Below, in pieces: positions 1,960 to 62,288 of a DNA stretch of 64,000 nt. Position 1 is the stretch's first letter, and each line of letters opens with the position of its first letter. The DNA is from Isoetes taiwanensis. Its lineage: Eukaryota > Streptophyta > Lycopodiopsida > Isoetales > Isoetaceae. The position numbers and the translations under genes are program-made. Location: NCBI GenBank assembly GCA_021234155.1, contig JAJEKV010000038.1:9099458-9163457 (forward strand). Reading direction: 5' to 3'. The notes beneath the pieces were generated by a model. It was given only the letters and a program-made list of their open reading frames with translations, did not search any database and had not been told where the DNA came from.

Positions 1960-4394
1960 CTACGAATAAACAGCAGAGGTTGGTTTACAAGAGTACTTTG
2001 CAAGAGCAAATGCTTACTCTTTTGCTGGGTTTGCAACAAAAATGTATGAAAGAAGATTTTATCCTTCAACAAATATCTGTATGTTGTCTGGAACAACATA
2101 TTGCACATTCAATATTCTCTACATTGCAAGAACATTGATATTTAAAATCAGAAAAATATCACTGATTAATCAAAGTTGACAGTATTGCTTTTCGTACTGC
2201 AATAGTTTTACAAATATTACTTGGCCCAAGGACAAATAGAAACTGCCATAGGATATGTGCCTTGAAAAATGCCAGTATGTGATACAATCGAACATCTCTT
2301 CAAAATGCAGGAATGAAAATTGACTATCTTTAAATCAGTGGAAGAGAAGCATATAATGCTAGTCATAGACAAACAATAAAGAAGAACTTATAGAGAACTT
2401 GGCAACACACTCTGTTATTGGTTACTATACTGGTGGATTTTTAGATTACAATAGGCTATCTCGATGGCTTCCTTGATACATTTCTCGCATCGGGCTACCT
2501 GCATTCGAGTCTTTGAAGGAATTAGGCAAGGACTTCTTGTAATAGTGCTGAGGCAGTAGAGAAATTGGTCATTCGAGGTGTGGATCCTTTGGATACTGTT
2601 TATATCCTCTATTATTAACAATGATTAATTTTGGCTTCTTTATGTCTTCCATTGGGGTCATCCTTTTCCTAAAATCGCCCTAAGTCCCCATCCTACTATG
2701 AGCCATTCTTTCCAAAATAATAGGTTACACTTTCTAAGCAAATCCTCCCCTACATTATAATTACCATTGTGAGAATTGTGCATGCATTTGTAAAGCCTAA
2801 AACTTGGACATAATGTAGTTTTTATCAATCCATACTGGCACATGATGTCACATCATATAGCCATCAGGCATATCATTTTCGTTTTCTAGAAGAAAAAGCA
2901 TTGAATGCATTATTACCACTATGGAAATTATACAATACTTTAAAGAAAAAAAAGAAGGGGCGAGGGGGGGAAGAGAGGGAAAAGAATTTGTTGAGTTCTA
3001 TATCTATTGAAATTTCCTTGCCGAAGGACTTTAAATATGGCAAAACAAAATGCTCACCAAACTAGTTACAACTTGAAACATACAACTTGAAACAACCTTT
3101 CAACAAGAACATAGATGCAACAAAACAAATAAATGATAAACAAGTCTTGCTGTGGAAACATAACGAATAATTATTTTGGGTAGGAACCCCACACAGCTGC
3201 AGCCAGCCTCTGTTTAGCCCCCACTGCAATAGCCAAATCTAAAGAATGAAAATAAAAAATTCTTGCCGTGGAACCAATAACAAATGGTCATTTTGGTTAG
3301 GAAGCTCACACTGCAACCACCACCCTCTGTTCAATCCCCACTACAACAACCACATATTTTTTCTGCATTATCAAGAAAATCATCTATCAAACAGTAAGAT
3401 CATATATAAGAAATAACATAGCAAGGTTATAAAGCATATAGTGAAAATATCTCGAGCATGCAAAATATCAAATGCATGCCTTATAACATCATATTGTGGA
3501 AGCAAGGTTGACTTTTTTAGGATACCAATTACAGATTAAAGCAATGTTGCAAAAAAATGCACAAAAAAAAGCCTTGTTATTTCTGGTCCAGATTAGAGCA
3601 TTTTGATTATATTTCAGTACCAGTGTTATGTCTTCTGTATATTTTATGTTTACAATGAGGGAGGTGATTATAGACAAGAGCTAACCCGCAAGGAACATTC
3701 GCCACTTCGAGGGGTGGTCGACCGATGCAAGGCAAGCTATGGGTCTTCCAATCGGCAAACACCGGGTCACGATGTGGTACAATGCATTGTTGTAATCCCT
3801 TGGGGTGCTGCTACTAAAGTTGTTGTAACTCCTTCTGTCGGATTCGTTGCTACTACTACTGCTGCCTCAGGAGCTGATGTCATTCCTACTGCTCCTGCTC
3901 CTAAACATGTCACCTTTGTCCACGTTGCTCCTAATACCGCTCTTGCTTTGCCATTGCAAGTCTTGCTCCCACTGCTCAACCTCCTTTTGCTCCTACGCCA
4001 TATATTGTCCCCCTGCTGCTACCATGAACCCATGGGAGTCTACATGTGCCATCCACAAATAGGAACTGTACTTATTTATGGCCTCCTGGAACTCTAGGGG
4101 CTTCCCCTGGCAGAAATGAGGTTGTCTCAACTCCATCGTCGCGGGTATGGATAGAACATTAAATTTGACCCCATGGCAGATGCGTTATAGCTCCGCCCTA
4201 CATAGATGGCTTGGCCATGGGCATCAGATGACAGGACCCACACGGTCATGCACTACAGCAAGGTGTTGCTTATATTGTGCAACATTTTTAACTTGGTCAT
4301 TTTAGCATAGTGGCCATCCTTTGGCAGCTACACTTGCAGTCAGGAGAACCAGTGGGGTGGCTCTTATGTGGTGGATTACGTGCTGGTGGCTAAG
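1960..4394. other. Intron or intergenic DNA upstream of the SnRK2 exon
   Basis: No kinase exon or other gene could be recognised. The stretch contains a purine-rich tract near 2945-2995 and an imperfect tandem duplication at about 3140-3355. An open frame at 3603-4097 (+) is rich in low-complexity Ala/Thr/Leu and matches no family I recognise. Confidence 0.35.
3140..3355 (+). repeat. Imperfect tandem duplication, about 115 bp
   Basis: Two adjacent segments share the order 'cttgc.gtggaa', 'ataa.aaat..t.attttgg', 'taggaa', 'cacac..c', 'cctctgtt', 'cccccactgcaa' / 'ccccactacaac'. The copies are visibly diverged. No function is apparent. Confidence 0.6.
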
Positions 4395-4425
4395 AACCAT
4401 CATTCATTTAAATTGGATTTATGTC
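4395..4425 (+). repeat. Left terminal inverted repeat of the 11.5-kb element
   Basis: This 31-bp terminus begins AACCATCATTC and is preceded by TAAG at 4391-4394. It is identical, as reverse complement, to 15913-15943. Confidence 0.85.
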
Positions 4426-7400
4426 TGTTCCAAAAGCATGCCACTTTTGCATACCCTTTTCTCAATATAGTGTTTTGTTGTGTGACATGCTGTTTTGCAT
4501 TGTTGCAAATTTTTGCATTGTAGTACTGGGAGGTTTAACATTTTCTTGTTTTAGTGAGAAGAATGTGGTGTTTGATTAGCATTTGTAGATAACAACACAT
4601 CAATATACAGAGAACACTTTTTACATTGTATTCACTTGATATGAAGATTACATCATGTAGGGACTAGTCCTTTCTTTGTCAAATAACTCTCAAGATAGGG
4701 ATCCATCTCCTTAGTCCGGATCTAGTTTCGATGCTTTTGACAACATCTCATAACGCTTTTACCGTAAGCCAAACCACTCATGATGGACATGAATAGTACT
4801 AGAAACTCATCCGTTGAGTAATCTTGTGGAGTATAAGTTGGTGGATTTAGAGCCCGACCTTGATTATAAAAGCACTTAAGAGCATCATCATCTACTATTA
4901 TGATGTCCTCTTTCTTTTGAATGCCAAGTCGATCCATCATAGTACCAAGATGTTTCCACGAAGACCGATTTGCCATCCGGATCTCTTGGATGTGGAAACT
5001 TTTATACACTTACTTTGGTCCCAAATCGTCACAAAGTCTCGATTCATGCCCGGTAACACCCTAAGTACTTCATCAACATTTCTCGCGTTCCATTGAGGAC
5101 CGATGGCAACTAAAACAATCAACACCTCATTCATCATATCTTCTAAGTGTGGACGAGGATAGATCCACTTAGTATTCGATTCTAGAGGGACTTGCTCGAA
5201 GTCATCACCGTTAATAAGCTTCTTAGGAAACGCTTTTACACAAAGACACCATTGGATCGAAGACAATGATTTTGTCACAAGCAGGTGGAGCCCCGAACCA
5301 TGGAAAACAAAGAGTTAGCTATGCAAAAGTGTTCGCAATACACGCCAAGCGTTTTTATCCTTCATAACAAAGCTACATATCGCGTCGGGCGTGAATTACC
5401 TTTCATCGCCGCCATCCACGCTAGCCTTAGCTGCCTACTTCACTCAGGATGCTTTACCGCCAAGCATGAACGCCACCTGTTAAGTTCGGACACGTTCTCT
5501 TCTATGAAAGCTACTGTGGGTTTGATTCCTAACCTCGCTGGTTGCACCGAGCTTGCATGATCTTCCCGGGTTGGTATCGAACCGCCGCGACTCGCACTCC
5601 CTTCAACCCGGACATTAGGACTGGAATGTTATCAAGCATGGACTTCAAATTTTTCTCCATGCTCTCAACGCCCCGTTCTAGCATTTCGCGCCTTCTCCTG
5701 GGGTTGCATTGCTTTTGAACATTCCGAGTTGCACTCTGAGGCTTTTGTGAACTAGTATTTCGCCGCCTTCGCAAGGTACCAAAGCCAACCAATTTTTTAT
5801 CTTTGACAGACCCCAATCAGCCGTGGCTAGTACCTTTTCGAAAAAAACACTTCAAGGAAATCCCCGGATCGTCATCGTTGTTAAACTTAAACATCTTCTT
5901 GATGTCTTCGTGGCCTCTCTACCAATATACCCTCCAACATGCAATTCCAACAAAGTGGTATCAAGTGGTGCAAATGCCTCAACAAGATAGCTTGCCGCGA
6001 TTGATTGCAAACCCATGTTTATTCAAGGGTCCCTTTTCTTTTTATCAGCAATTCCAGAGTGATGTCTTTGGCGGTAGAGATTAGGAACATCAAATTCTCG
6101 TGATTCATTTTCTTCATCCTCATCATCTTTGTAGAAGACATTTTTCAAGTTGGGTTCATCCAAGAAAACACCGCCATGCACCTTTATCCGATGCCCCTTT
6201 GCTCTTAGCTACCCTCATAGTCGCCTATCCGCACAAGGGATATCATTATGAAGATTATACAAGCTTTTATACTGCATCCTCAAATCAAGATCCTTTGTCT
6301 CAAAGAGAAGAGAGCCTCCCTAACGACCTTTAGGCATTGTAAGTCGTATGAAGCCATCAAAGCATGCATATGAGGCTCTCATGGGGGGGGCATATGATGA
6401 CAATAGTAAAGAGTTTCTCGAAGTTGTTAAGTTTATGCAGCTACTAAAAAAACCATTGTACTCGTTGAGTCATCCTTCTCTCCTTTTGCAAGCCCCGCTT
6501 ATCCAATACAAACAGAGAAATATTACGAGGGCTTATTGTTGTATCGGTAGGAGACCTTTATAGCCCGAGAGACCCAGGTATTGAGTGTGCAAGTCACCAC
6601 CAACATCTTTCGTGATCGGCATTAACCTTTCTTCCGGCTCAGCCATCACCTTATCGATAGCTTTGAGGTGTGTCGTTGGTTCTTTGATTTCCTCGCTTTG
6701 CAGAAATTCCTTCGACCAAAAGACGATTTCTTGATGTCACAGACACACGCCATACTTGTCTAGCAGGTCGACTTCGCATAATGTTACATCACCGGAGTTT
6801 TCTGAAGTTCTTCACCAACCGCTACCTTCATAACTCGCGATGTTCTTTATATGAGTGCAACAATCAATGAAGGACATTTTGTCCTTAATGAAGAAGCCTT
6901 CTTGTACGTAACTTCTTTGTTTATGCATTGATTTAACAACCAAATGATTTCATCATCTTGGAGGCCCTCGTACTTTCCTCATCTCGGTAGTCTTGAGATC
7001 AAATATTGAAGTATCTTGAGGAGGCACTTTCGTCCCATTGGGTCCGGTAGTCGCTTCGAAAGATAAGCATCCGAACTCGCTCCACTTCGCCCGTGACTTC
7101 CTCGCCTCTTAGCTTAAGACCATCTTGTAGGCATCCAGGACCTCCGGAAGCTGCTTCAGACGTCTCCCGCTCTTCCCGCTTTTTTCCCCGCTTTTTGGCT
7201 CTTGGTTTCCTATCTTGGATGATAGTCCGGGAGCCAAGGTCTTTTCCAATGCCTTAAACTCCTCGTGACTTCGCTCCTCCCCGCTTTATTTGCGGGGTCT
7301 TCCATATTCTATCCATTGTCAAGGCGGGCATGACGGAGTTGTTCCACGAAGGGCTGCGTGTAAAGGAAAGCATGTCAGCCAATATGAGCGGGACATACAA

Positions 7401-7439
7401 AAGTTAACCGCTTTTAGATCAAGCAAAACAGATAATCGT

Positions 7440-7790
7440 GAAACGCCAAAGTGACGCTATTGTTAATTGGTGCGGGGCGGTATTCATCCCGACATTTATG
7501 GACGGTATCACACGCCAGCGCCGAATTGGCAAGATGAAGACGCCAGCGCCAATTACCGGTGTATTCGTCCGAATAGGCAAAGATGAATACACGCCGCCGA
7601 ATTGGCAAGCCATCGCGATTCGCACCGGGCGTATTCGGGTCCACCGATGAAAATGCAGGTTCATTGGCAATTGGCTGGCGTATTCATGGTGACAATTACG
7701 GACGAATATACCCCGTGCGCGAATTGGCAAAGATGAATTCACGCCAAGCGAATTGGGACGCTTTGACAAACGGACGGACCTACTATACTG
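7440..7790. repeat. GC-richer short repeats inside the 11.5-kb element
   Basis: The motifs 'gaattggcaa(a)gatgaa', '(t)acacgcc' and 'gtattc(a/g)tcc' recur at least five times in varying order over 350 bp. Open frames on both strands here are by-products of the repeat. It could be a captured repeat or a subterminal-type binding array. Confidence 0.5.
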
Positions 7791-9639
7791 TTATTATTAC
7801 TTGATATATCCTGACTCTATTCCACCAAATATACTAACCTTTATAAAGAAAGACCTACCATTTCGCTCAATGTTGCACTAATCTCTGCCGTGTCCTCTCT
7901 GCAGGGGTATGGGGGCTTAGAAACCGACACCTCCTGTGGTTGTAATGTAGCAGATACATTGTTTGTCCGGTTTGCTTAGCCTGGTTGGATAGGGATCGTT
8001 GTGCCTCAATAGAATGCTGTCCGTCAATAATAAGGAAGCATACATTAGGGTTCTCCACGGTTAGCTCTTTCTAGTGTTGTCCATCGAGTGGAGCATCCTT
8101 TTTCTTATCCCAAGGAAGCACGCCCGCTGGCATAGGAACTTGGCCTCGATTCCTCACCATCGCCTCAATATTTTTCTTGCATGCTCGTGGTCATACCTCC
8201 CGCTAACAAGACTTGACTTATGTGATCTCACCGGGGACGGCCAACATGGATGGATGATGTAAAAGATTGGCCAAGTGGGTAGTTGTCTGCATACTTGACT
8301 AGCCTACTCATTGCCTCCACCTGCAATTTCTTTTCGAGTCATTTTCCGCCAAAATGCCATCAATCAAGGCGTACGGGGATGTCCTTTCCTAAGTCCAAAG
8401 AATCTTCGTGACATCCCTCGATATCATTTTGATGCTTCATCTCCTCTGTAGTAATCTTGAGAAGGTCCTCGCAAAGCTCTCCTCACTGCAGACACCCTTC
8501 ACTAATAGAACCTGGATTGAGGACGGTATTTTGAGGCCATCCGTGATACTTGAAACATGACTCAAAGACTCACGCCCTTCTTCATCGGACCATCTTTGAA
8601 AGCGATTTGCCCGGCGCATGTAAACTGGCGAGATCTTTCTTGTGGTTCTTCACAACCTCCACTAGGAGTTGACAACGATGTCATCCCGCTCCTCACAAGT
8701 GATAAGAATACCTTGTTTCTTCATAAGATCGGTCTCTTTCTTTTTCCGAGTGTAACACAAGATCCACCTTACCATTTGTTTTGCCTACATCAACATACCG
8801 GGTGACCGCTCATCCATCTTCTCCTCGAGGCATGGAGGATCTGCATGGTTCGCCCGGATAATGGATCCGAGGATGCAAGGTCCTCATTGGGCTTTCCCTT
8901 CTTCTCGGAGCTGGGAGTCATTTGGAGTATCTTCCGAGCCTCTTGCTTTCTTAGGAGGAGGTGTAGGAACGATCATTCGGTTTTGTCTCTTTCCCTCGCG
9001 AAACGACGGTGCAATACACGCTTTTAGCGCGATTTGGTGGTCATCAATTCGCCAGCAAAAAGCAACCAATGGCATACAGCCCCCGCCACGCATTATGCAC
9101 TCATAAGGCGTTGCAATACACGTAAAGATGCCGACCACACAAATTAAGGCAGCCAACTAAACACGGGGCCATACTACTTTTACAAATTATAGACGTAAAC
9201 GCTTAATCACGAGTAGGACAATTTAACATGTGAAGGACATTTATTATGCGATGCAAATACAAGTCACACAGAAAATGAGCAGCTAAAGAAATGATAGACG
9301 TGGAGTGTCAAAGAACTATAGAAATTTAAGTCACCGCTACGTAAATAATAGACAGGAGCATAGGCGTAAGATACGTGAGCAAATACAAGAAATACAGAAG
9401 TTAATCAACAATGAATGAATAACACACAAAATGATGACAATACCGACCTTCAAAGATCTTTCTGGCCCGGCCCGAGTTTGAGCAAAGACGACCTTTGGGC
9501 GGCATCTTCACGATGATCTTGAGCGCTGGAGTTCTTGAGTTCCCCGAGCCTAGGAGTTCTTTTTGAGCCGCCTCTGAGCAAGTTCACAATCAAAAGCAAG
9601 AAATGGAATTCAAAAACTTATATAGATTTGCATAAGGCG

Positions 9640-9815
9640 ATTAGGGTCGGCTTTAGATCGACGAAGTTTCATTCTGATCGACTTTTCATCGACGGTCCGA
9701 TAAAAGCGAAGCGGTTATTAAAATATCATGGATCGACTTCTAATCGACGGGTCCGATAGAAGGAGCGGATATTTAAATTTCAAGGATCGACTTTTCATCG
9801 ACGGTTAGCAAACTT
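9640..9815 (+). repeat. About 60-bp tandem repeat with GATCGACTTTTCATCGACGG core
   Basis: The core occurs near 9678, 9733 (diverged) and 9785, each followed by 'tccgata' or a variant and an AT-rich spacer containing 'ttattaaaat' / 'atttaaattt'. A degenerate copy lies near 9652. The core carries inverted TCGA/TCGA elements. It lies within the minus-strand gene region of the 11.5-kb element. Confidence 0.6.
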
Positions 9816-10884
9816 AACGATTGGGTCTAATGGATTTGACACATCGCATGACGAAAGCGCTTAATGGCTCTACGATGACCGCATTGTCAAATCCCATAAT
9901 TAGATTTCACTCACGGGCTAGAAAAGCAAGACAATTAACGGATAATTTGAAACTACCACCTTAATCTTGCCGCCACTGTTTTCTTGTCATTCAACTCGAA
10001 AAGAACTTGGAAGAACAGAAGAACTCGAAGAACTCGGAAGAACCGAAGAAGTCATACCGAAGCGATGTCGAGCTTCATGTAAGTTCATCTACTCTTCCGC
10101 ATCCCAAGCTCCAAATTAATCCCACGGCCTTTGGCGACATTGAACGTGGGGAAGAATGCTACATGCCGATTTAATTTAATTTGAAGAGGAGGGTGGGAAA
10201 TTGCAAGATAGAATCACGATCCGAAGCAACCGCCATGGAGTTCCTCTTGGAAATGATCATGTGAAGATTCTAGTAACCGATTGCCATTTCAACGATTTAA
10301 GCATTACCCGAAGGCATCCCGATGGAGACACAAAGGTGAAAGCATCTAACCTTTGTTGCATGGGCTGATTTCGCTTAAAGAAGGTGAGTTTCATTTTCTT
10401 GGAAGACATAGAGGAAGATTGAGTGCTCATACTAAAATGCACAAACTGATTCTGTCATATGTATGAAATTAAAAGGCTTGCATGCCAGACCATTCTTTCA
10501 AAATTGCAAAAATATAAGGCCTCGCACTGAGCATTCAGAATTCAAAAAACACCGCTTTTACATGGATGGGATATTCTTTACATGGATGGCATTCTTTACA
10601 TTGTTTTAATTACATCGCAGGTGTTATTTATCTAGGTGTTATTAACTGCGGTATTGTTCCTCAAGATTCGGCAAATAAAATAGTGCGCCTTCGTGGGTCC
10701 GCAACTCTAATTATCAGCTTAGCATTTTCCAATTCAAGCCCCTCCATAGCACGGCCATGAGCTAATACCATTCAGTTGTAACTTAAATGCCATGCGCGTA
10801 TCCTGTATTGTACTTTAAAGCAAAGATCGTAATTTCTCAAGTCGTACCATCATTTTAAACCGAGGAGAGCTGAAGTGAAATCCG

Positions 10885-11035
10885 GTGAAATATGTTTGTG
10901 TGCATTCATGTTTACATTGTGCGGGTCCAATACACGCCGTGATTGGCGCATAAAGCTAATATCGTGTGTAATTCACGCCAGCGTGTATTGACCGCTTGAC
11001 AATTTAAACATTTTGTACACAAACATATTTCGGCA
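10885..11035. repeat. Palindromic unit, copy 1
   Basis: The unit begins AAATATGTTTGTGTGCA and ends with a near reverse complement (TGTACACAAACATATTT). The inner parts 'tccaatacacg' and 'cgtgtattg' also pair, giving a long hairpin of roughly 150 bp. A second copy follows about 265 bp downstream. It resembles a foldback MITE, or part of one, duplicated in tandem. Confidence 0.6.
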
Positions 11036-11156
11036 CCTGATCTCACCTCAACTCTTCAAAATTAAGAATGAAAGATCGAATTAGATAGATCGCGAGCATG
11101 GTGCCGCTTACTAATTCAGGGTCTAATCTGTTCATAGAAGTGAAATGCCAGCGCCG

Positions 11157-11307
11157 AATATATGTTTGTGTGCAAAATGTTTACATTGTGCAGTCCAATA
11201 CACGGGCGTGAACCGCATAAAGCTAATTATCGTGGTGTAATTCACGCCCAGCGTATTGGATCGCTTGACAATTTAAACATTTTGTACATAAACATATTTC
11301 TCGCCGG
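11157..11307. repeat. Palindromic unit, copy 2
   Basis: Same hairpin-forming unit as at 10885, with the flanking 'gatctcac.tca..tctc' and 'aaaattaagaa' also repeated. The duplication therefore extends past the palindrome into a unit of about 265 bp. Confidence 0.6.
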
Positions 11308-11749
11308 CGTGATCTCACTTCAGCTCTCTCAAAATTAAGAATTAAAGAGCCAGAATTCAAAACAGTTTCTGAAGAAATTACAGTTATGCCTTCAAGTTAG
11401 AGTTGACACTAAAGAAATATATTGCAGTCATTAATCCTTGTATTGCCATTGAACATTTTTACATAAGGCCTTTTATTTGAGTTGCCGAATTCCAAAAAAT
11501 GCCTTTCCAGAAATTACGATTCTACTTTCAAGTTAGAGTAAAACTAAAGAAACATATTGCAACAAGAAATCCTTGTATTGCCATTGAAAAAGTTTACATA
11601 AGGCCTTTTATTAGAGTTGCCCAGCTCTGTGTTACAAAATTACAGAAGTTCTAGGCAGTTTAAGGAGATGCCCACCATTGTTACAAAATTACGTAAGTTC
11701 TAGGCGGCTTAAGGAGATGCCTAGCTCATTTTTTTCCGATCCAAAACTA

Positions 11750-11960
11750 AATAAAAAAAAAAAAAAATCAGCCCTCTACCTCCTCCTTCTTCCTCCTCCT
11801 CTTCTTCCTCTCGAAGCTTTCATCCGCCATCCTCGCCGATGTCTTCGGCAACATCTTCATCATCTGGAGGAGGAGAGGGCCCATAATCAGGCTTTTTTCT
11901 TCCTCTAATTCTTCGCCATTCTTCATCCTGGGCTTCCTCCATTTCTTCTTCTTTCTCAAT
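11750..11960. repeat. A-run followed by CT-rich low-complexity tract
   Basis: A run of about 16 A at 11751-11767 is followed by CTC/CTT triplets. On the minus strand the triplets encode Glu-rich stretches of the decayed second gene. It is either a coding triplet expansion or a simple repeat. Confidence 0.5.
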
Positions 11961-12113
11961 CTCGTTCTCCATCTCCTCACCTGAATCAAGGGGAGTATGG
12001 GGACTTGGGGTCGGCCAGGCCGGTGCCGGTGTCGATAATCTTTTCCCTAAGCTTGCCCCTCGAAGAAATAACTCCTCGCGAATTATCCGGATCAGGAAAG
12101 TGAGAGCAAACAC

Positions 12114-12840
12114 AGCCGCATCCGCAGGGAGGGGGGAATGGATTTCTTTATCAATTTTTTTACCTGCCTCTTTGCCTCTCGGAGGCGAGTCCGGCGGGAT
12201 GGAGCGGGACGAGGCCGGCGGGATGGAGCGGGACGAGGCCGGGCAGCATGGCTCACCATGGTAGAAGGAAGAAAGGATTGGCGCTAGAAGGAAGAAAGGA
12301 TTGGCGGTTGAAAGAATGGAGGGTTTCTTATAGGCGCGGTTGTAATTATGATTCCATCACATCATACAAGATTTATATCATATACGAATTACCTATCATT
12401 ACTTCTATTGAATTAATTACGCCCTAGGTTATCATAATTTCTATAGAATTACCCACATGTCGCCTATACTTAAAACCTATGTTTTCATTAATTTTGTATA
12501 ATTACCTAGACCCCAAATATACTTACAACCAACTTTGGCCCATCTAGATTCAATGACCTATACTTACCTCATTAGTACTACTAGCATACACCCTATGTTA
12601 CCATTAATTTTGCAATAATTACCTACGCCTGAGCTATACTTACAACATATTTTTGGCTGCACTTACAACATATATTTGTCCATTTAATGGTTTTCTTGGC
12701 ATTTCTTAGAGTTCCCTTTAATCGGTTCTCAAAATTACTTTGTCCTTTTTTTCGACTAATATTAAGACATTTCACTTTATATAGGTGAAGCGTGTGGATC
12801 CTAAAAGGGTAAAATGTAATGCCTATCCCCCCAACATGTT
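12114..12840. promoter_or_regulatory. Divergent intergenic region of the 11.5-kb element
   Basis: This interval separates the leftward and rightward decayed genes. It contains a duplicated 24-bp GC-rich unit (about 12190-12240), a duplicated 'agaaggaagaaaggattggcg' block (12262-12306; shown to 20 it begins AGAAGGAAGAAAGG), and two copies of a CATTAATTTTG..ATAATTACCTA segment near 12488 and 12603. A promoter role is inferred from position only. Confidence 0.3.
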
Positions 12841-15765
12841 TCAAGATTGTTACCACATGTTCTTATCACATTGTTACCCCATTGTAAACATTGTTCTTGT
12901 AGGTCAATGCTGTGGACCTCCCAAAGGGTGTTGAGGCTGAGACTACTAAGCAAATTGTCCTCTACAAGAGGGTTGGATTGGAAGAATAAGAAGGTGAAAG
13001 TGAAGCACCAATGCAATAAGGAGCTAGTAGGTGAAGGAACTATCATACTAGCTGATCCTATCCAGTCGCCAATGATGAAAGGTTAGGAGAGGATAAAGTG
13101 GGTGTGGCCATAACAAGTTTAGAGGAAAAATGGAAGGAAAAAGGATCAAATCACCGTGATTGCAACCGCTTGTATTAAACAATTGAGGTTCCATGCGTCA
13201 TGCCATGGCCTATAGCCCGCATTGAGTTTATAGGAGAATTCTTTTTTACGAGCCGAGGTTGTGGATGACATCGATTTTCTTAATGCACCTCCAATAGCCG
13301 CCAGACCACATTTTCGTGAGAAGAGGGCACACTCAAGCTGGTGAAACATTATCCTAGCAAGAGGTCCAAGTCAAGTAGTGATTGTTCACGGAAGCTCGAC
13401 TAAGGTAAGGGAATGGAATGTTGTTGGGCTAATTGTGTTCAGAAGTTTGAAATTGATGAATTGGTGGAAGCAAGAGCCACCTTCCAAGAGTATACTTGTG
13501 ATGAGAGGAGGACTTACTTGTACTCCATTCATGAGCTTGCACTTCAAGATGAACAATTTCCAAAGAAAAAAAAAAAATACCCAACGCTAGGGATATGGAT
13601 ATGTAAAGTTGCATGGATACATATTCATGGCATTCCAATTTCAACTTGGCAAAATTGGCAAGCAAGTCATGCAAAGGGGAGTAAAATTGCATTACATGGA
13701 AATAATGGCATGTTGAGGCCAACTTCTAGGATCCCGGGCTGCTAGGGAGGTTTTGAAAAATATGTTGAATTCAATGCTGAGAATATGCCACATAAAAGTA
13801 GGAAAGATCAACAGGAAAAAAAATAGTTGTCGAGAAGAGATTGCCATCCCATTGTACCCCAGAAGAGCATATTGAGGAAGTCAATGCTTTGCTTCGAGAA
13901 CTACTGTGCACCGCAATATCTCAACCCGCCTCAAGAGACTATGGAGCAAGCACTTCAAGCATGTCACTATAGACACTTCAACAACTTTTGCAAAGTGCAA
14001 CTTGTGTGCTAAGTTGAAAGAGATTCTTGATAAGACCAAGCAACCAAGCCAAAGGGCTAAGATAAGGGAGCAAATGAAAGATCACATGACGTAATTCAAC
14101 TATCATGTAGATCCACTTATTGGATGTGGAGAACATTATCATGTTTGGAACCCAATAACTATGTTTGTATTATACATGACAAGATGGATCAATCAAAGAC
14201 TTGTTTGCCACAAGATAGTTACATACCCAAGCAAATCAATAGAGCTTATCCTTTGCAAGTCTCTCCTCGACTGTGTGCAATAGTGCATGGCGTGGTGCCA
14301 ATTTATTATGGCCATTTTAGTTTGCAATTGTGGAGTGATGGTCCTGATTTTCATATTGGAAGTGTGATGAGGTGCTTGAGGAACTATGAGAGTGGTTATT
14401 CGGTGACCTCCACAACCTCGAGGTGGTAGCCAACCACTCTTCAAAGTGCATTGTTGGATAGAAAGCCTAATAATTTAGAGAAGTTTACTAAGGCAAGGTT
14501 TAGGAGTCGGGTGCTCTGAACATGTTGGAGCCTCAAGTTCACGCCCCCAACCCTCGAGATCTACCACCAAGGTTCCTCCTCCAACTTGACAATTGGCCGA
14601 CGAGAATAAAAACAGTATATGTTCTCATTCCTATCTTATTTAACAGCCGCGGGGTGTCTTTGAAAGAGTGAATTTAGGGTTCTTAATGCCCGGACATACT
14701 CATGAGGATGTGGATGCATTGTTTGGGAAGTATAGTCGCAGATTGAAATCTCAAACCGTGACCAATCTTCCTAGACTAATGGAAGTTCTTAGTGAATGCA
14801 TTTCACCTTCTCCTATAGGGTTGATCATACAAGAGGTGCCTCGATTGGAAGAATTTTATCAAGGTTATGCTTTTGATATGGAAGGTCAATCTAGACCTCT
14901 TCATTACACTTTCTCGGGTCATGGGAAATAAGCCAATCATGCAATGGAAGATGAGACCTTCAGGATGACAAATGGAGGCCGATGAGGGAGTACCTATATG
15001 GCACTAAGATGAAAATGGTAAACCCTAAGATTCCAAGGGGTCAACCAAAAGCTCTTAAGCCTTTTCCAGGAGGTGGATTCATTGCAAAGCACATTGGATC
15101 GGCATTTGAATACATCAAGTATTGGAAAATAACCCCGATAATACCAACCTTGCATTGATAGATTATTGGACACAGTACATGGATTATTGGGACAAGTAGA
15201 CACATCCTCCGATGAACTCAAAGATGGATGGCTACCTAAGACTAGGTGGAGAGACTTGATATTACCCGAGGAAGCCGATGATGTGGTTAGTAGTATTCGG
15301 CAAGTCCATGGCTCCTCCAAACAAAAACACTATGTTGGTCCTAGGGAAAGGAAGGCCTAAATATCTCCGGGCTGGAGGATTATGATCCGAAAGATGACTT
15401 GCTTTGCCATCAATTTGCACTTATAGTACCAAAGCAAAGAGATATACCTCTCGGTGGGTGGATGGGTTACACCATCTCGTGAGGTTTGCAAAGAAGTAGG
15501 TGACCGCAATGTGAACAAAGTTCGGTGGGAGTGGTGGTGTCCAGCACCGCTTAAATGCAAAGGGCGAGAGGAAGAAAGGTATAGAGACTGTTGGACAAAG
15601 AAATGGAAGAGAAACCCTATTGAAGGTGATGATTGGGTTGAGTTAGATACTATTTTGTTTTCATGGACCCCAAAGGTCATCCCAGGCAAGACTGCTAGGG
15701 TTACAATACCTGTGGAAGTGAGGAAGAAAGCTATGATATCTCTAGGGGTCAATTCCGAGAAGTAA
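12840..15765 (+). pseudogene. Decayed DUF7869-like (GHTHEDVD) gene, candidate transposase
   Basis: Coding islands occur in the order expected of the large uncharacterised family I know as DUF7869 proteins. 13413-13745 has RRTYLYSIHELAL, then KVAWIHIHGI and IALHGNNG. 13906-14094 has the zinc-ligand-like AKCNLCAKLKEIL and QMKDHM. 14124-14429 has DQSKTCLP and a strand-rich segment. 14580-14931 has a 'LPPRFLLQLDN'-like stretch broken by frameshifts, then VFERVNLGFLMPGHTHEDVD and ALFGKYSRRL. 15000-15765 holds the C-terminal part, with WLPKTRWRDLILPEEADDV, ending in a stop at 15763-15765. Several stops and frameshifts show it is dead. The stop lies about 150 bp from the right TIR. The family name is from memory. 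That it is the transposase is inferred from conserved acidic residues and its position in the element. Confidence 0.65.
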
Positions 15766-15912
15766 TTGGCAATATGTAACTCGACATGCATATGTGAAAT
15801 ATTTTTAATTTTTAATGCAATCATGTTGTGCTGTTATAAAAAAAAGTCACATTCTCGATGCAAATTTACTAACCCGGGAAAAAGTTGCAGTGCCAAAATG
15901 GTCCAAAATCCT

Positions 15913-15943
15913 GACATAAATCCAATTTAAATGAATGATGGTT
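15913..15943 (-). repeat. Right terminal inverted repeat of the 11.5-kb element
   Basis: Exact 31-bp reverse complement of 4395-4425, followed by TAAG at 15944-15947. Confidence 0.85.
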
Positions 15944-16444
15944 TAAGCATGATCTGCACTTGTATAATTGAAAGCAATAGTATTTCTATAACAACAGGTT
16001 TTTGTAAATGTATTATTCCATTATTTGCCATGTTTTGACTTTTATAGTTCCTTTTCACTTGTATTGAAAGACGAATAATGGATAAACTATATCAGTTGTT
16101 TATCGTCCTGACATTCTAACTACACAATTGACTAGAAATTGTGAAATCTTATTTCTTCAATCCATCTCGATACAATCCCTCATACAAATGGAAAATGTAT
16201 GTAATGTCGTTCATTGACACCCAGCTACCCATGAAGAAGCGCAGACTTATAGCTTCCATTCGCACGGGGGCACATCGCCTCCGCATTGAAACAGGGCGTT
16301 GGGCCAGGGAAGCACGAGAGCAAAGGCTTTGCCGATGTTGTTGCCACCGTGGCGATTGAGGATGAATGTCATGCCCTCCGTGACCGCCAAAGATTTGCCC
16401 ATATCCAGAGCCATATGTTCGATTACTAGTGTCGGCCACCGTTG
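15944..16444. other. Flank right of the 11.5-kb element, no gene recognised
   Basis: A minus-strand frame at 16447-16247 (GMTFILNRHGGNNIGKAFA) looks protein-like but matches no family I can name. The remainder is AT-rich and featureless to my eye. Confidence 0.3.
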
Positions 16445-32667: not shown

Positions 32668-32739
32668 GGAGGTATAGCTCAGTGGTAGAGCAATCGGCTG
32701 CAGTCCGATAGGTCACCGGTTCAAGCCCGGTTGCCTCCT
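32668..32739 (+). tRNA. trnC-GCA: tRNA-Cys (GCA)
   Basis: A complete 72-nt cloverleaf can be drawn. The acceptor stem GGAGGTA/TGCCTCC has one T:G pair. The D arm is GCTCAGTGGTAGAGC. The anticodon stem ATCGG/CCGAT encloses the loop CTGCAGT (anticodon GCA). The variable loop is AGGTC, and the T arm CCGG-TTCAAGC-CCGG is intact. Discriminator base 73 is T, the known identity base of tRNA-Cys. There is no intron and no encoded CCA. A and B boxes are intact, and a TTTTT terminator follows 13 bases downstream. The sequence fits a nuclear gene rather than a plastid copy. Confidence 0.95.
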
Positions 32740-33653: not shown

Positions 33654-36328
33654 TGAACACTGCTTGCTCATTTAATGGGATCATGGTTGCATTTGAACAT
33701 TATATTTTTTCTTTACTGTTTATTAAAGTCTGAGTAGCTTAAGGTTATAATATTTGAAGATTTCCATCCATTCCAAAATTACAAAGATCTATACAGAAAA
33801 TAACCCCTTCGAGTAAGATTTCTACGGAAGCATCACTCACTTCCCATTGTATTATGGGATCATGACTGCATCTTGACAAGCTACTTGCACGTCGGAATTA
33901 TAATTTCTCAAGGCAGCATATCCTGGCAGCCATACGAAAATAAGTCTCCCAACACGATTTTCATCTTCTTTTTTACACTTCTTTGCCTGATCATACATTC
34001 GATGTGCTAGACAATAACATTGCTTCAGGATTGCTATCAGAATGACAGTGAAATCAACATTGTTTACACCAGCTATATGTTCGATGGTAATCCTAGCATC
34101 TTATACTTATTTTATGGTGCTTCAAACCTGCACATAAAAGTTGCATATTCTACACCAATGCCATTGACTAAGATTGCAGATGAATGGCAGTAAAATTAAC
34201 AAACTTTACGACAGTTACATGCTTGATAATTACAAAGAATTCTTACTGACAAAGATCAGATAAAAATATTACGCAGATAATATGTTTTCCCTCTCTTTAC
34301 CTAACTTATTCTATTGCCAGCATTGGATTACATGGCTTATATGCAATAACAAGAAAGCAGGATACAAAAATGCTTCAGATGTTGTGCGTCCTATAATTAA
34401 GAGAAAAAATAATGCTACATTCAGCTATTTTGTAGGAAATAACTGTATGTAAAGGGTTACTTGCAAACATAACCATATACTGGGGTGCCAGAAAGTAGAC
34501 AGGGGCCTAGATGATGAAAACACCAAAGGACTGCTCCATAAACACCCTATCTCAAACTTCCTCTTATCAATTCAAGGAAGTTGCTGGCGTGCTCATGAAA
34601 TGTAGCTCTCGTTAAGCCTAATGGCAAGATCTGTACATAATCTCAATTGTTTCATTTTCAGGGTGCATCATCAGTATGAGGACAGAAGTGCACTTTGCAC
34701 AATCCATAATCTGAAGCCAATCTGTGACTGCCAATATTGATGATAACTGAAGTGCCAGCAAAGAGCATAAAAACCTGCTTTGAAAAGTATTAACAAAAAA
34801 CCTGTATTTTACATCATACATGTAGCATATCTATAATTCTACCTACAACACAAATGAAGCATGATAAAAGCAAAAGCTTGCTTACCATGTCTTCAAATAC
34901 TTGGTTCCCATACTTGCTCACTTCTTTTGTTTGGGAAAAGAGAAATTTTTATGCTGCTCCAGATCCAGAGATTATCCCGGCTCCAAGAGAGGTTTTATTC
35001 TGCTTTGATTAATTGTAGGCCGGAGCCAAAGGCCAGCCTTCCAGAAATTCTCCCGGCTCCCGTGAGGAAGCCAAGGAGGGGGTTTGGAAATAGTTTTCAA
35101 CCAGCAATTGACGCGTCTCGGATAAACCTCACTAACTGCGTCATTGCCCCAAGCGCAAAGATAAGCTCCAACGCTTTGAACTTCTGTTTATATAATACAA
35201 TATTGTTCCAAATCTGGCCTCCTGGCCTGTGGGATAAATGCTTCATCCCTCCCCCAACAACCGCCCTGTTTCAATAGAGAAAAACTTGCTCAGAAAATTG
35301 CCCGAACCTCTGCCGTAGCTGCAAATATCATACGTATCATGGATTGGAGCATTATGATATTTGCAAATGAATCTGAAGCACGTCATAGTGTCCAGAATAC
35401 AGTCCCTTCTGGTTGGACGTACTAACTTCTGGCTATTTCGTTGCACGTAATTTTCTTAACCTACGAATGAGAGATGGTTACTTTCAAAAGTTGACTAAGC
35501 TATCGGAAGGTTCGTCTACTAGTTCCGAATCGGGCCTTAAATTTTATGCACTTCGTGTTTTTCTTCTTGTAGTTCACCGTATGCGAACAAATATTATTTG
35601 GTCTGTCTAAATGTTCTGATATTGAGAATATTGGCTGTTTTTGAGAAAGGAGAAGTTTATTCTAATGAAATTACACAGGGAAAATGGTAATTCTGCTCGA
35701 TGTGGTAATGAAAGTGCTAAGACCACCGAGGCGGTGGAAAGGCAAGAAGCAAATTGAGAGCACTACGTTGAGTTTGATATGAGGTTTCAACCAAGCATAA
35801 TGACAACGATTTATTGCTTCACCACCGTCTAGAATAACATCACTCTGGAAAGACATGTTTTCCAGCATATTTACATGTCTTAATAAAAAAAATTTTGTTG
35901 CCATGCACACACATAGAACCGTTTTATTGGCTATGCCTTAGAAGGGATCCTTCACCATAAGCCGTCAAAATTCTTGAAAGGATCCAAGGCCACTTTAAGA
36001 GAGCAACAAACAGAGAAGATGAAAATAAGAGAAGCCGTTTTATTAGGTTGCATGTATGAAGGATCCCTAAACTTTAAGCCTGTGATTATTCACAGTATTC
36101 CACACACAAATAAAACCATTTATTGGTGCGTGTTCAAATCCTTAAAAAAGATCCAAGTTCACTTTAAGCCCTGTGATTATGCAAACTATAAAGGCAACAA
36201 ACAGAATAAAAGGAAATAAGACAAGAAAAATAAGATAAGTCATCTTTCATGTTAATGCACAAGTTCATATCAGCGCCAATAAATCTGGCCTCTTGACAGG
36301 AATATCATGAGATTTCATATCAATAGAT
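33654..36328. other. Intergenic, 3' UTRs of two convergent genes, no further gene
   Basis: The plastid protein gene (+) and the cyclophilin gene (-) converge on this interval. A frame at 34861-35277 (+) contains ALINCRPEPKASLPEILPAP but matches nothing I know. Two related segments near 35920-36000 and 36080-36160 ('accgttttattgg', 'ggatcc.tca', 'ctttaag') suggest a short diverged duplication. Confidence 0.35.
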
Positions 36329-47950: not shown

Positions 47951-50280
47951 TAAGATCGAACTTGAATGCTGATTTGTTTTTTTCATCTGGTTTATCTCTT
48001 TCGATCGCTTATGTATTGTAAGGGAGCAAGAAATAAGGGTATAAGAATTGGAATTTGGACATTCTTCTTTCCTTTGTTTTGTTTGCAATGTACATGGTGA
48101 AAGAACTTTGCTTTAGTAAGACATCATTGGCTTCATTGGAGTCAGTGTTATCGGAAAAATGGTAAGGAGAGTGTTGACAATGCGATTCTTGGCATACTTA
48201 TCAGGCAACAACCCTCTCAAAATTGAAGCAAAGTTAAAACAAAAAAATCTCTACATATATAGTTACGATGTTGAATACACGATGCCGCCATAGAGAGAAC
48301 AACATTTTGGGGTTGTAACTGGGATGCTTATCAACCAAAGACGGCAAAAAGAAAATCATACATGCATGGATCACTGTGGCATGCAAATAAAATCTACACT
48401 AGTGATGCATGTATTAGCCTGGAATGTGAACAGAGCTTCGTATAGAAAGACCCTTGAGTTTCTAGACAACCGGCATACTGGTTCCACAACCGTTGGATAC
48501 CTGGAATACTATCTGGCCATTTAGATACAGTAGCCATAAAGACGTCTAGCCCACCTTTACAGTCTCCAAGGCTAGATTTCATTTGAGCGTAAAACAAGCA
48601 CCCGTTCGGATATATAGGATACAAAGTGAGTAGATCGCGAGGCTAATGATAAAGCATGTTGTGGTCCATCCACCGGCACAAGATTGAACATAATTATTTG
48701 TAAGGACTTGGTTTGCTCTTGAGCTATAAAACTCCAATGCGAGGTTGATGGGACTCAAAAGGAAGGCAGTAGGAGTCCCCACAGATGTTGCAGTATTCAA
48801 CAACTTCATAGGACCAACATCCAAATGAATTGGTTCATGATCCCACTTCAAGTCAAAAGTAAGCAGCCACGCTTGCAACCAAATCTCTCAACAATGTTAT
48901 GAAGGCATTATTATAAGCAAGATAAGCACAAGAAACCCAAAAATGCATAGCTCGAGAATCCTTCAAGTATTTGAGGGAAGCTCAAAGTACTTGCTCTTGT
49001 GTTTTCTACCCCATGGGTTGAAGCAGTTCGCATCAAATCCTTTATCCAGTCCAGATAAAGTTCTGTGTGTACAGGCTCAAATAAGCTACCCATAGCTTAA
49101 CAGATGAAGGATGATCCCGCAGAGCCCGTGATAGAACGAATAGTGCCTATAATTGGTGCGATTGAACATTAATGTAATGATATCTATAATCATGTCAAGC
49201 TCATGCTATAACAAGCTAATGGGACATAAATTAGTATCCATAAAATGACCTCTGATAGGGAAAAGAGCTGAATTATCCATATAGGAGCAACTGGACAGCC
49301 GATACACTTGCTTAGTATGTTCCACTATCTGGATAGGTTCAAGCTGTAGAAGAACGACAAAACATAGAAGGCCTAACATTTCTAACCTTTTTATGACAAG
49401 CAGTACCAGAACATGAAATGCAATGCAAGTTGATGTTGCAAAGCAAATTCAAATTTCGTATTGAATGCAAAGCTTTGTTATGGCGCCAGTTTACCAGCTC
49501 CACGATCACAAGAAAATATCAGAGAAACTATCAAGATTGCATCACTTAAGACCTCTCCAAACGAAATTAGAGCAACATTCAACTTTATAAGAATTATCAA
49601 CAAAATGGCATAGACAAAGGAAGACATGAACACAGGAAGCGGATAGGCAAGGATATACAGAGCCGTTGCTTCATCCCCATAGAAAGCAAAGAAGAATGAT
49701 GAAATACTCGTGGAAATTGCGCACAAAAGAAAACATTAGCCACTTGAGAAATTCAACGATAAAAAAAAGCCCTGAAAATATCAAAAAGAAAGTGATACCC
49801 ATGTTGAGATTCTTCACTACGGCCCATGCTGAGATACCTTGTGCAGAAAACCATGGGTGTTCATTACAGTAACTAAGCACAATGAAGAGCGGTCAGAGCT
49901 CAAACTTAGACTACCGGACTCACTAGATGATCAAACTAGAGCCTTCTCTGATAAGAACTGACTTCTCCGGAGAAGACAGAAATTCGAAACCCTAAACCGC
50001 CTATCCACGGGAGCAAGAAGAATGATCGATTACAAGCCTAGGGCAAAGCGTACGATGGATCCATAGCCAGGATGCTCCACAGTCACACATCGTGCATAAT
50101 AGAGAAATTAGGGCATCTAGAGCTTCATCTTTTCAATAAACAGGGGGTATATTTAGATCAAACTGAGCAGAGCTTAGCCATCGCTCGAAAATGAATTAAA
50201 TTTAGTTACCTAAAACATTTATTTACCTGCTGCTGTGCATCTTACCATGCCTGCATACGAAACATATAACAAGAATAGGG
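47951..50280. other. No secure gene; possible decayed HAT/TPR-type exons on minus strand
   Basis: Minus-strand frames at 48878-48579 and 48624-48394 read ALEFYSSRANQVLTNNYVQS and then DVFMATVSKWPDSIPGIQRL-WNQYAG, which resembles half-a-TPR repeats of RNA-processing proteins. No full motif set is present. Hydrophobic frames at 49880-49478 (-) are unassigned. Confidence 0.25.
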
Positions 50281-50289
50281 TAGCAAATG

Positions 50290-50810
50290 GCGATTCTTGA
50301 GTCCAAGAACCCCCTGCACAGTAAATCTCATATGGATGCTTTGGAAGACCCCAACAGCAACCCTATTTCGTTTGTTATTCCTGGGGGATAAAGGCAGCGA
50401 TCAAGGCAGTCTGTCCATAGTGGCCTGTGATACGGATAGATTGGAGTATGAAGATGTTATATGGGTAGATAAAGACTCGGTAGGCATCAATGCCACTGTG
50501 CAACTTGAAAGTGATGGGAATTTAGTACTTACAAATGAGTTAAATCTGACTATCTGGTCTACTAACACATCTAATCAAGGAGTAAAGAGAATACGACTTA
50601 CTGAATATGGAGCCTTGCTTCTTCTTAACAGTACCAATCACACCGTATGGAGCAGTTTTCAATGCCCAGCAAACAAGCTTGTATGCGGCCAAGTTCTGCA
50701 GCCTGGCATGGAGCTCAATGGAGATTACCATCTCCGAGCAGAGCAAAATGGAGCTGCTCTCTACTTCCATCAGCATCAATATCAAGAATGGAATTGGAAT
50801 ATTTCATATT
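50290..50810 (+). pseudogene. B-lectin (EP1/S-domain-like) pseudogene fragment
   Basis: The protein shows the mannose-binding B-lectin pattern: ATVQLESDGNLVLTNELNL, TIWSTNTSNQGV, LTEYGALLLLNSTNHTVW, then QVLQPGMELNGDYHLRAEQ and GAALYFHQHQ. An upstream frame starts MAILESKNPLHS near 50288 and gives DALEDPNSNPISFVIPGG, the usual start of such domains, but shifts frame near 50390. The frame then runs into the foldback element at 50810, whose sequence supplies the last residues up to 50998. No PAN, S-locus or kinase part follows. Extracellular glycoproteins and S-receptor kinases share this domain, so the original class is open. Confidence 0.75.
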
Positions 50811-51218
50811 TAAACCCCCTTTGGTTTGGGTGCTTATTCACACGGGGGGTGACTCCGGGCAACGAGAGCTGTTGGATAGGCATATTCAACCCTTATTCCT
50901 TAATCTACACCGTACGTAAAGTTCCTCGTTTGTGGGGTATGCAAGTACACAAATTGGTATACCGTATAAGAAGATATGCAACATACTATAAGATTTGAAG
51001 CAAAATACTATATGGTGTTGATTTTGTACCTGGGAAATATAATTATAACAGCTCTCGCTGCCCTACGTCACCCAGGTGTGAATAAGCACCCAAACCAAAG
51101 GGGTTTAAGGGGATTTTAATTTAAATATGTTGGACCCAATGGTTGTGTTAATTAATGTTAAAGGTACTTATGTATTAGTTGTTATACAAAAAAAATTTTG
51201 GGCCCTTCGGCCCCTAAA
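50810..51218 (+). mobile_element. Foldback element, copy 1
   Basis: Long inverted arms at 50810-50872 and 51048-51110 pair over about 60 bp. The left arm starts TTAAACCCCCTTTGGTTTGG and contains GGCAACGAGAGCTGT; the right arm is its near complement. About 175 bp lie between. Past the right arm both copies share a further 100 bp ending in an A run and a GGGCC-CTTC-GGCCC hairpin at about 51200-51213. No transposase is present. The class (MITE, or retroelement with hairpin end) is unresolved. Confidence 0.7.
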
Positions 51219-60073: not shown

Positions 60074-62288
60074 TTTTTTTTTTTTTTTTTTTTTGAGAGA
60101 TAAAAAATAGACTTTATTTACTTTAAAGGAATGGTACAAAGCCACTTGGCAGGGGTGTACTCATCTGCAAATCTGAGATGAGGATAGCTACATGGCTCCT
60201 TCTTGCACTATTCCCTTGTACTTCCTAGTGTAAGCTTAGGTAGGTTCCCCATATTTCGACCTTGACTTCTTCACCCTCGAAGGCTAGCCTGAATTTTTTC
60301 AGCCTTTTAAGTACTATATGTAGAAGCTGCTGTGGTGATATGTCTTCTTGATTTTCATCGAAGACCAAGGCGTTTCTCCTTTTCCATATTGACCAGATTG
60401 TCCAGGCCCTAGCTATATGAAAGGCCACCTTCTTCATGGAGCACCATTCTAGGGGAAGGATTCCCAGCAACAGTTCCTTGGTACCTAACGGGTATTCAAA
60501 GCTATCCAGACTCCATGCCCATACTACTTGTAGCTTCTCACATTCCACCAGACAATGTTCTATGGATTCCTGTTCGGCCTCGCACAAGGGGCATACAGGG
60601 CTGACGTTATTGTCCCATTTTGAGACTAGTTGATTGACCCTTGGAACCCTGTGTATCACTTGCCAGAGGAAAGCATTTATCCGAGGGGGAGATACTCGCC
60701 ACGCATCTCTCGGATGTTTTTAAGGTTTTCCTCCGTGATTATTAGTTCCCATTTGTTGGTATTGGAAGTAAACCTTAGTCCTCAAGCATCTCAGAACTTG
60801 ATTTCACAAACTTGTTTGGCAAAATCGTGGTGCGTAACCCATGGATTTTGATCTCTGTGGATTTTTTAGTGTTTGGAAATACTTTTGGGCCACACATTCC
60901 CATATTATTTTGTCCGCATCCTTTAAGGCAAAACGTTTGAAATTCTGCCCAACCCGACTAATTACTCTCCCTTGTACCATTGAGCACAAGAATCTATTCC
61001 ACAATTTTTTCCACCTCTTTACGATCCTTGCATCGACCACCATACCTAAGGGGCCATGTTTGTTGTGCGTAGAACCACCGGTACCCACCATGGAGGGGGA
61101 AGTCTCCGCCGAATTTGTTGATGTCAAGCGATATGATTTTAAGCCAAAAATTAATCCCTTCGTAAATGGAGAAGCTTCTCTACATGGCTTAAGATAAAAA
61201 AAGTGACCATGGGGAGGAGACTTTGACGAGGAGGGCTTACTATGCTTACATGACGCTAATAAGAGCCCGATTGATGAGGTGCATACCTGGAGACTTCACC
61301 TCTTTACGTAGGATCTTCCATATGAATTTAGCTATTAATACTTTGCTCAGAATGATAGCCAATCGACCATTCAATTCCTCCTTACGCCTTATCTCTCTTG
61401 CATTTTCACCAAGTGATTTTTGACCAACGCCCCTTCTTCATTCCCTCCCGGACAAAGTTGCGGATTAGCCCTTCTAATTCTTGTGCCTTCTCTTTGGGGG
61501 CTAGTAAAATTGATGGCGTGTATACATGAGTATTGCTTAACACATGTTTTGCCACTTTAATCCGACCTACAAGTGATAGCTTTGCCACCTTCCACCAATT
61601 TAAAGTGTTTACGAGGCCTAGTAGTATTTAGGTCCCATATTTGTGTGTTAGCGATATATTGATGCCCACCGAACACTAATAGGTTGGAATGCTCACCCTC
61701 TGGAATTATTTTCCATGGTAGGATTGTCAAGCATGTGGGATGTGGTTCTTCCAAAGGCCATCATTGTTGTGCATTTATTCCAATTTATGAGACATCCCAA
61801 GCTATTGAGAAGGAGGCTAGTAATTTACTGCATAGCCGAGGTTTTCTTCCTCTTCCTCTATGAATAGAAATGTGTCGTCTGCATATTGGTTACATATTTG
61901 TTGAGAGCCATCTAACATTTCTAGTCCCTGAATCATACCGTCTGCCGAGGCTTGCACAAATAATTGTGAAAGTGCTTCTGCTGCAATATTGAAGAGGAAT
62001 GGGGCTAAGGGGCACCCTTGCGTGATGCCTCTTTTTATGTCAAATATTGGGGAGGGTTCACCTTGGAATAGGACTGGAGCTCGAGCAGATCGCAGAAGTT
62101 TCATGACCCCTTCTGTAAAGATTTTTCCACAACCTAGCTTGAGCATCATTTTATGCAGAAAACTCCATCTGATACTGTCATAAGCTTTGGTAAAGTCTAG
62201 CTTTAGGTAGGCCACCTTTTATCTTGTTTTTCTAGCCCAGTGCAAACCTTCGAATGCTGCTGCGACATTGCTCAGGATACTCCTGCTC
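60074..62288 (-). mobile_element. 5'-truncated L1-type LINE, decayed
   Basis: The insertion is read on the minus strand. The 3' poly(A) appears as 21 T at 60074-60094. AGGTTTC at 60067-60073 and 62289-62295 is the target duplication. 62215-61817 carries reverse transcriptase blocks LKLDFTKAYDSIRWSFL, GITQGCPLAPFLF and QYADDTFLF. After stops and frameshifts, 61588-61406 has the LSLVGRIKVAKHVLSN stretch typical of the region after the palm. 60659-60225 is an intact zf-RVT region: PVCPLCEAEQESIEHCLVEC with complete C-x2-C, H and C ligands. The element is 2.2 kb long and lacks ORF1, the endonuclease and the RT fingers. Confidence 0.92.

Follow-up and report, generated by a model that had tools for sequence, protein, structure and literature searches.

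A 64,000-nucleotide stretch of the Isoetes taiwanensis genome (the window; positions 9,099,458 to 9,163,457 of contig JAJEKV010000038.1, assembly GCA_021234155.1, forward strand) contains a decayed copy of a large transposon that is present many times over and has terminal inverted repeats (TIRs) and a two-gene layout. The right gene encodes a DUF7869 protein, the putative DDE/D transposase of a cut-and-paste element, and the left gene a conserved partner protein with a NIF-type phosphatase domain. We assign this reading a probability of about 0.8. The unit measures 11,549 bp (4395-15943) by sequence comparison within the window. Its termini confirm the exact 31-bp inverted repeats, with TAAG on both outer sides, that the initial annotation had reported from the letters alone:

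4391-4394, no strand: 4-bp target duplication at the left end, TAAG, read from the sequence
4395-4425, plus strand: left 31-bp TIR, an exact inverted repeat with genome-wide matches on both strands
15913-15943, minus strand: right 31-bp TIR, exact inverted repeat of the left end
15944-15947, no strand: 4-bp target duplication at the right end, TAAG, read from the sequence

Within the window, the 31-bp arms had no further match at up to three mismatches, and none was obtained in 100 shuffles. All genome searches were performed on the window's own assembly (1,658,258,908 bases, 1110 contigs). Here the 31-bp end gave 1332 forward and 1351 reverse matches at up to three mismatches, that is, more than 1000 ends per strand of the quillwort genome, and the reversed-pattern control gave none on either strand. 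Transposable elements account for 37.08% of the I. taiwanensis assembly according to the available part of the source (PMC8566536). The analysis of pairs was based on the first 100 places listed for the 31-bp end, all of them exact. Among these matches, neighbouring ends were less than 20 kb apart in 19 cases, of which 18 were in +/- and one in +/+ order and none in -/+ order; the 18 +/- pairs spanned 9115 to 15849 bp. Apart from longer +/- neighbours, the other listed ends had no exact partner within 20 kb. The 18 pairs, two longer ones (23 and 25 kb) and the window make up the 21 end pairs examined in the following, where pairs of L numbers denote fetched end pairs and P numbers denote DUF7869 homologue proteins.

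An exact 4-bp target duplication flanked 20 of the 21 end pairs, including that of the window (the exception being L025/L026), and a 5-bp duplication flanked none. When ends were mispaired as a control, 4-bp words agreed in 8 of 420 combinations, each time between copies sharing a word by chance. Three copies on one contig (L009-L014 on C19) have common flanks, about 84-98% identical, and are probably the product of a local duplication; with these copies counted as one site on account of their flanks, 18 of 19 sites carry a 4-bp duplication. The 20 duplications comprise 17 different words, so that there is no fixed target word. TAAG, which had been taken as a feature of the element, is therefore a property of the insertion in the window and not of the family, although the length of four base pairs held throughout the 20 duplications.

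Comparison of the flanks with the fetched loci only revealed one empty site. It lies in the same window and belongs to another copy:

60266-60560, minus strand: empty target site for copy L017/L018, an element-free repeat copy matching the joined flanks

The joined flanks of L017/L018, less one duplication, were identical to window positions 60560-60266 at 259 of 295 positions without gaps, with a single ATAG. TIRs at both ends of many copies, a duplication of constant length (20 of 21) and an empty site are the marks of a cut-and-paste TIR transposon, and we infer movement of this kind rather than replicative movement. The repeat copy that contains the empty site extends from 60080 to 60807 in the window and has one translated frame with many stops.

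Both genes were present in all 21 end pairs, always reading outward and in the same layout. As the window supplied the gene queries, 20 of these copies are independent of it. Coverage was weakest in two copies: in one, only 78 residues of the left query aligned, and in the other 467 of the 750 residues of the right query. Queries for separate gene parts, each taken from one of the copies (tblastn, coverage of at least 30%), detected the N-terminal, middle and NIF parts of the left gene in 21 of 21 copies and its DGQH region in 19; for the right gene, the N-terminal part was found in 20 copies and the middle and C-terminal parts in all 21. In the window both outward-reading genes are interrupted by stops and frameshifts. 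The right stop codon (15763-15765) is located 178 bp inside the right end, and the left gene stops short of the left end by about 264-327 bp, according to which frame is followed, in agreement with the two divergent decayed genes described at the outset. A short repeat scattered without the interior genes was also considered as the source of the ends and was dropped, given that all 21 copies carry the gene pair and 18 of 19 neighbouring ends are in +/- order. As a test, the initial annotation had called for inverted pairs of the terminus at many loci, 4-bp duplications with the same gene pair at other copies, and empty sites, and the assembly provided all of these, with one site for the last.

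The right gene and its conserved positions are as follows:

11915-12424, plus strand: uncertain, possibly an exon or leader upstream in the right gene, resembling an open reading frame of copy L011/L012
12903-15765, plus strand: right gene, DUF7869 protein, putative transposase (tblastn)
14178-14180, plus strand: first conserved Asp, in IIHDKMDQ, candidate catalytic residue, codon checked, equivalent to D222 of P0007
14588-14590, plus strand: second conserved Asp, in LQLDN, candidate catalytic residue, codon checked, equivalent to D389 of P0007
14692-14715, plus strand: GHTHEDVD motif, which probably supplies the third catalytic acid (E or D), codons checked

With 67.1 bits against PF25273, the right gene scores above the curated cut-off of 26 and is a member of DUF7869, the uncharacterised family to which it had been likened. 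Pfam lists PF25273 as of unknown function, and a literature search returned no paper naming DUF7869. The read-through of the gene led to 32 homologues, and by source names DUF7869 proteins occur in plants and animals. Alignment of relatives displayed a conserved D...D...GHTHEDxD pattern. In P0007 numbering, D222 is Asp in 68 of 68 ungapped rows and D389 in 69 of 69; among the acids of the GHTHEDxD motif, E428 is retained in 65, D429 in 69 and D431 in 68 of 69 rows. A confident structure model of P0007 contains an RNase H-like core, the fold of DDE/D transposases, and its best fold matches are DDE transposases such as that of Mariner/Mos1. D222 is placed in the first core strand, D389 right after a core strand, and GHTHEDVD at the start of a core helix. 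A candidate triad would consist of D222, D389 and one of E428, D429 and D431; the third acid may be E or D. The DUF7869 protein is likely a DDE/D transposase with predicted catalytic activity. A family of unknown function would gain a concrete, probable role in transposition that is anchored by defined ends, a duplication of fixed length and an empty site.

No sequence in the PDB matched the DUF7869 piece of the window at E ≤1. In the assembly DUF7869 is abundant: 9903 first-look candidates were obtained, and the best 150, which were scored, all exceeded the cut-off and included several long open frames. The 3′ region of one other DUF7869 family was read, and no terminus was definable there. 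Scanning of viral contigs with the DUF7869 alignment gave 18 matching stretches and no confirmed locus, and a plasmid collection gave no match. In genome contigs, three loci were confirmed from 47 matching stretches; they reside on contigs of 4.3-6.4 kb in bacterial bins and were taken for eukaryotic contamination. Residues 657-761 of P0007 resemble SH3-like, Tudor and BAH domains in the model, possibly a chromatin-binding module, and two Branchiostoma DUF7869 proteins (P0015 and P0017) also bear a Ulp1-type C48 protease domain.

The left gene had been recognised as the second gene of the unit, but its identity was missed. It encodes a protein with a C-terminal NIF/FCP1-type HAD phosphatase domain and consists of the following parts:

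4659-5345, minus strand: C-terminal part, NIF/FCP1-type HAD phosphatase domain (PF03031), frameshifted (tblastn)
5446-7056, minus strand: middle part (tblastn), open over 550 aa in copy L043/L044
7820-8414, minus strand: DGQH-motif region, weakly like DGQHR proteins (tblastn; sub-threshold NCBIfam match)
8367-9021, minus strand: N-terminal part (tblastn)

Against PF03031 (cut-off 21.8), the read-through of the window scored 28.5 bits and an open copy elsewhere 56.5 bits; a single window piece alone reached 16.3 bits, under the cut-off. The domain is shared with NIF/FCP1-type HAD phosphatases, from which the element differs in that the domain terminates a large, transposon-borne gene. For the middle part, no Pfam match was found at E ≤1. 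The DGQH region matched NCBIfam DGQHR in two of three copies with E values of 0.063 and 0.11 (13.0 and 12.2 bits), far below the cut-off of 58.85, and in the third copy not at all; no Pfam family matched this region, and the resemblance to DGQHR proteins is a lead only. In searches of PDB sequences, the window's left piece matched two designed proteins only (E 0.19 and 0.92), the open left copy matched UBLCP1 at E 0.0085, and the DGQH region gave four rows with a best E of 0.82. The NIF read-through had no homologue among 15 candidates, and the left protein had no match in PADLOC. Literature searches found no paper joining NLI interacting factor with transposable elements in Physcomitrella, nothing related, as judged by title, for NLI interacting factor with transposase superfamily, and no mention of Isoetes among the matches listed for Isoetes and transposons. 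A phosphatase-like gene tied to a DNA transposon raises the question why such an element carries one.

NIF domains are also present outside this family. The Pfam search of the genome for NIF gave at least 151 matches, the strongest at 195.8 bits, and 150 DUF7869 matches were listed separately. NIF matches far stronger than that of the element, up to this score, are presumably host genes. Dispersed NIF-type domains formed a long run at about 61-85 bits, and in most of them the match contained no stop. A search with the NIF protein gave 152 matches (6802 first-look candidates, best 150 scored). Among the matches listed, 18 copies near 62% identity constitute a second family, and 16 of them had no stop inside the match. 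One of its ends, read in five copies, was an identical 31-bp terminus in four and carried one change in the fifth, with differing flanks. This terminus differs from that of the window at 4 of 31 positions and gave 1450 and 1481 matches on the two strands at up to two mismatches (control 0), a count that may overlap that of the window family. A 4.3-kb pair of these ends was flanked by an AATT duplication and a 27-kb pair by none. The other end of the second family was not found; a degenerate pattern gave the same ends (332 + 332).

In the mechanism that we propose, the DUF7869 RNase H-fold enzyme would bind the 31-bp ends, excise the element and reinsert it through staggered cuts 4 bp apart, which would give rise to the 4-bp target duplications. 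The left protein with its C-terminal NIF-type HAD phosphatase-like domain would be the conserved partner. As an accessory factor it might, at a guess, dephosphorylate a host or transposon protein or aid targeting of the complex. That the left protein is instead captured cargo of this branch, with DUF7869 alone moving the element, appears rather unlikely. Hardly any of the listed DUF7869 matches had a NIF match nearby: one was found within 30 kb of 1 of 93 dispersed NIF matches and of none of the 18 second-family NIF copies. These lists hold the top matches, so that the low co-occurrence is weak evidence. In addition, none of the listed DUF7869 homologues contains a NIF domain, a comparison of the proteins themselves. 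Against cargo stand the retention of the N-terminal, middle and NIF parts in every copy, and of the DGQH region in nearly all, and the second-family NIF copies, in most of which the match is free of stops. The pairing of NIF and DUF7869 is seen in the window's family only, and the low co-occurrence argues weakly against a general partnership. The reverse arrangement, in which DUF7869 is the passenger and the left protein or the transposase of a related element does the moving, is highly improbable. It draws on the predicted nature of DUF7869 catalysis and on a middle part of the left protein without known domain; against it stand the conserved acids, the RNase H-like model, the occurrence in plants and animals and the presence of DUF7869 in all 21 copies.

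Several known superfamilies were considered. piggyBac and Kolobok elements duplicate TTAA; they were excluded, as none of the 17 words is TTAA. Mutator duplications of 7-12 bp and the 2-bp TA of Tc1/Mariner, as described in the available part of PMC10741241, likewise differ from the 4-bp duplication of the element, and both were excluded. In the accounts of two reviews, Sola elements encode a DDD transposase, make 4-bp duplications, end in TIRs of 11-1124 bp and measure mostly 2-9 kb, in some cases above 15 kb, with an example in Physcomitrella (PMC10741241, PMC9033089), and the Sola2 elements of dictyostelids also produce 4-bp duplications in the section available of PMC3627910. To membership of this superfamily, perhaps of Sola1, with DUF7869 as a Sola-type transposase and the phosphatase-like partner as the only novelty, we give somewhat less than even odds. 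The 4-bp duplications, the 31-bp TIRs, the large size (11.5 kb), the three conserved acidic sites and the seedless plant host all agree with the Sola descriptions, and one DUF7869 homologue (P0085) is from Physcomitrium patens. These common features are not specific to Sola, however, the third acid may be E rather than the D of a DDD transposase, and a phosphatase-like partner is absent from the review descriptions in the parts available (PMC10741241, PMC9033089). As the likeness rests on description and not on protein sequence, we have not filed the element as Sola, to which it is possibly related. The earlier reading holds for the TIRs, the two genes, DUF7869 and the 4-bp duplications; that the unit defines or extends a superfamily stays a proposal, as the Sola descriptions likewise include TIRs, 4-bp duplications and a DDD transposase. 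Should DUF7869 be Sola, the two-gene layout would still be new, and so would the phosphatase-like partner. A bolder version of our cut-and-paste reading, which we consider unlikely, is that DUF7869 marks the transposases of a plant and animal superfamily so far unrecognised, with 4-bp duplications, and that in a lycophyte branch two proteins came to form an obligate machine, the large NIF-type, perhaps also DGQHR-like, protein regulating or targeting transposition.

Elsewhere in the window we found a U4 spliceosomal RNA gene (35025-35162, minus strand, 106.8 bits), a tRNA gene (32668-32739, plus strand, 67.8 bits) and an open reading frame encoding a D-mannose binding lectin domain (50279-50998, plus strand, PF01453, 40.6 bits).
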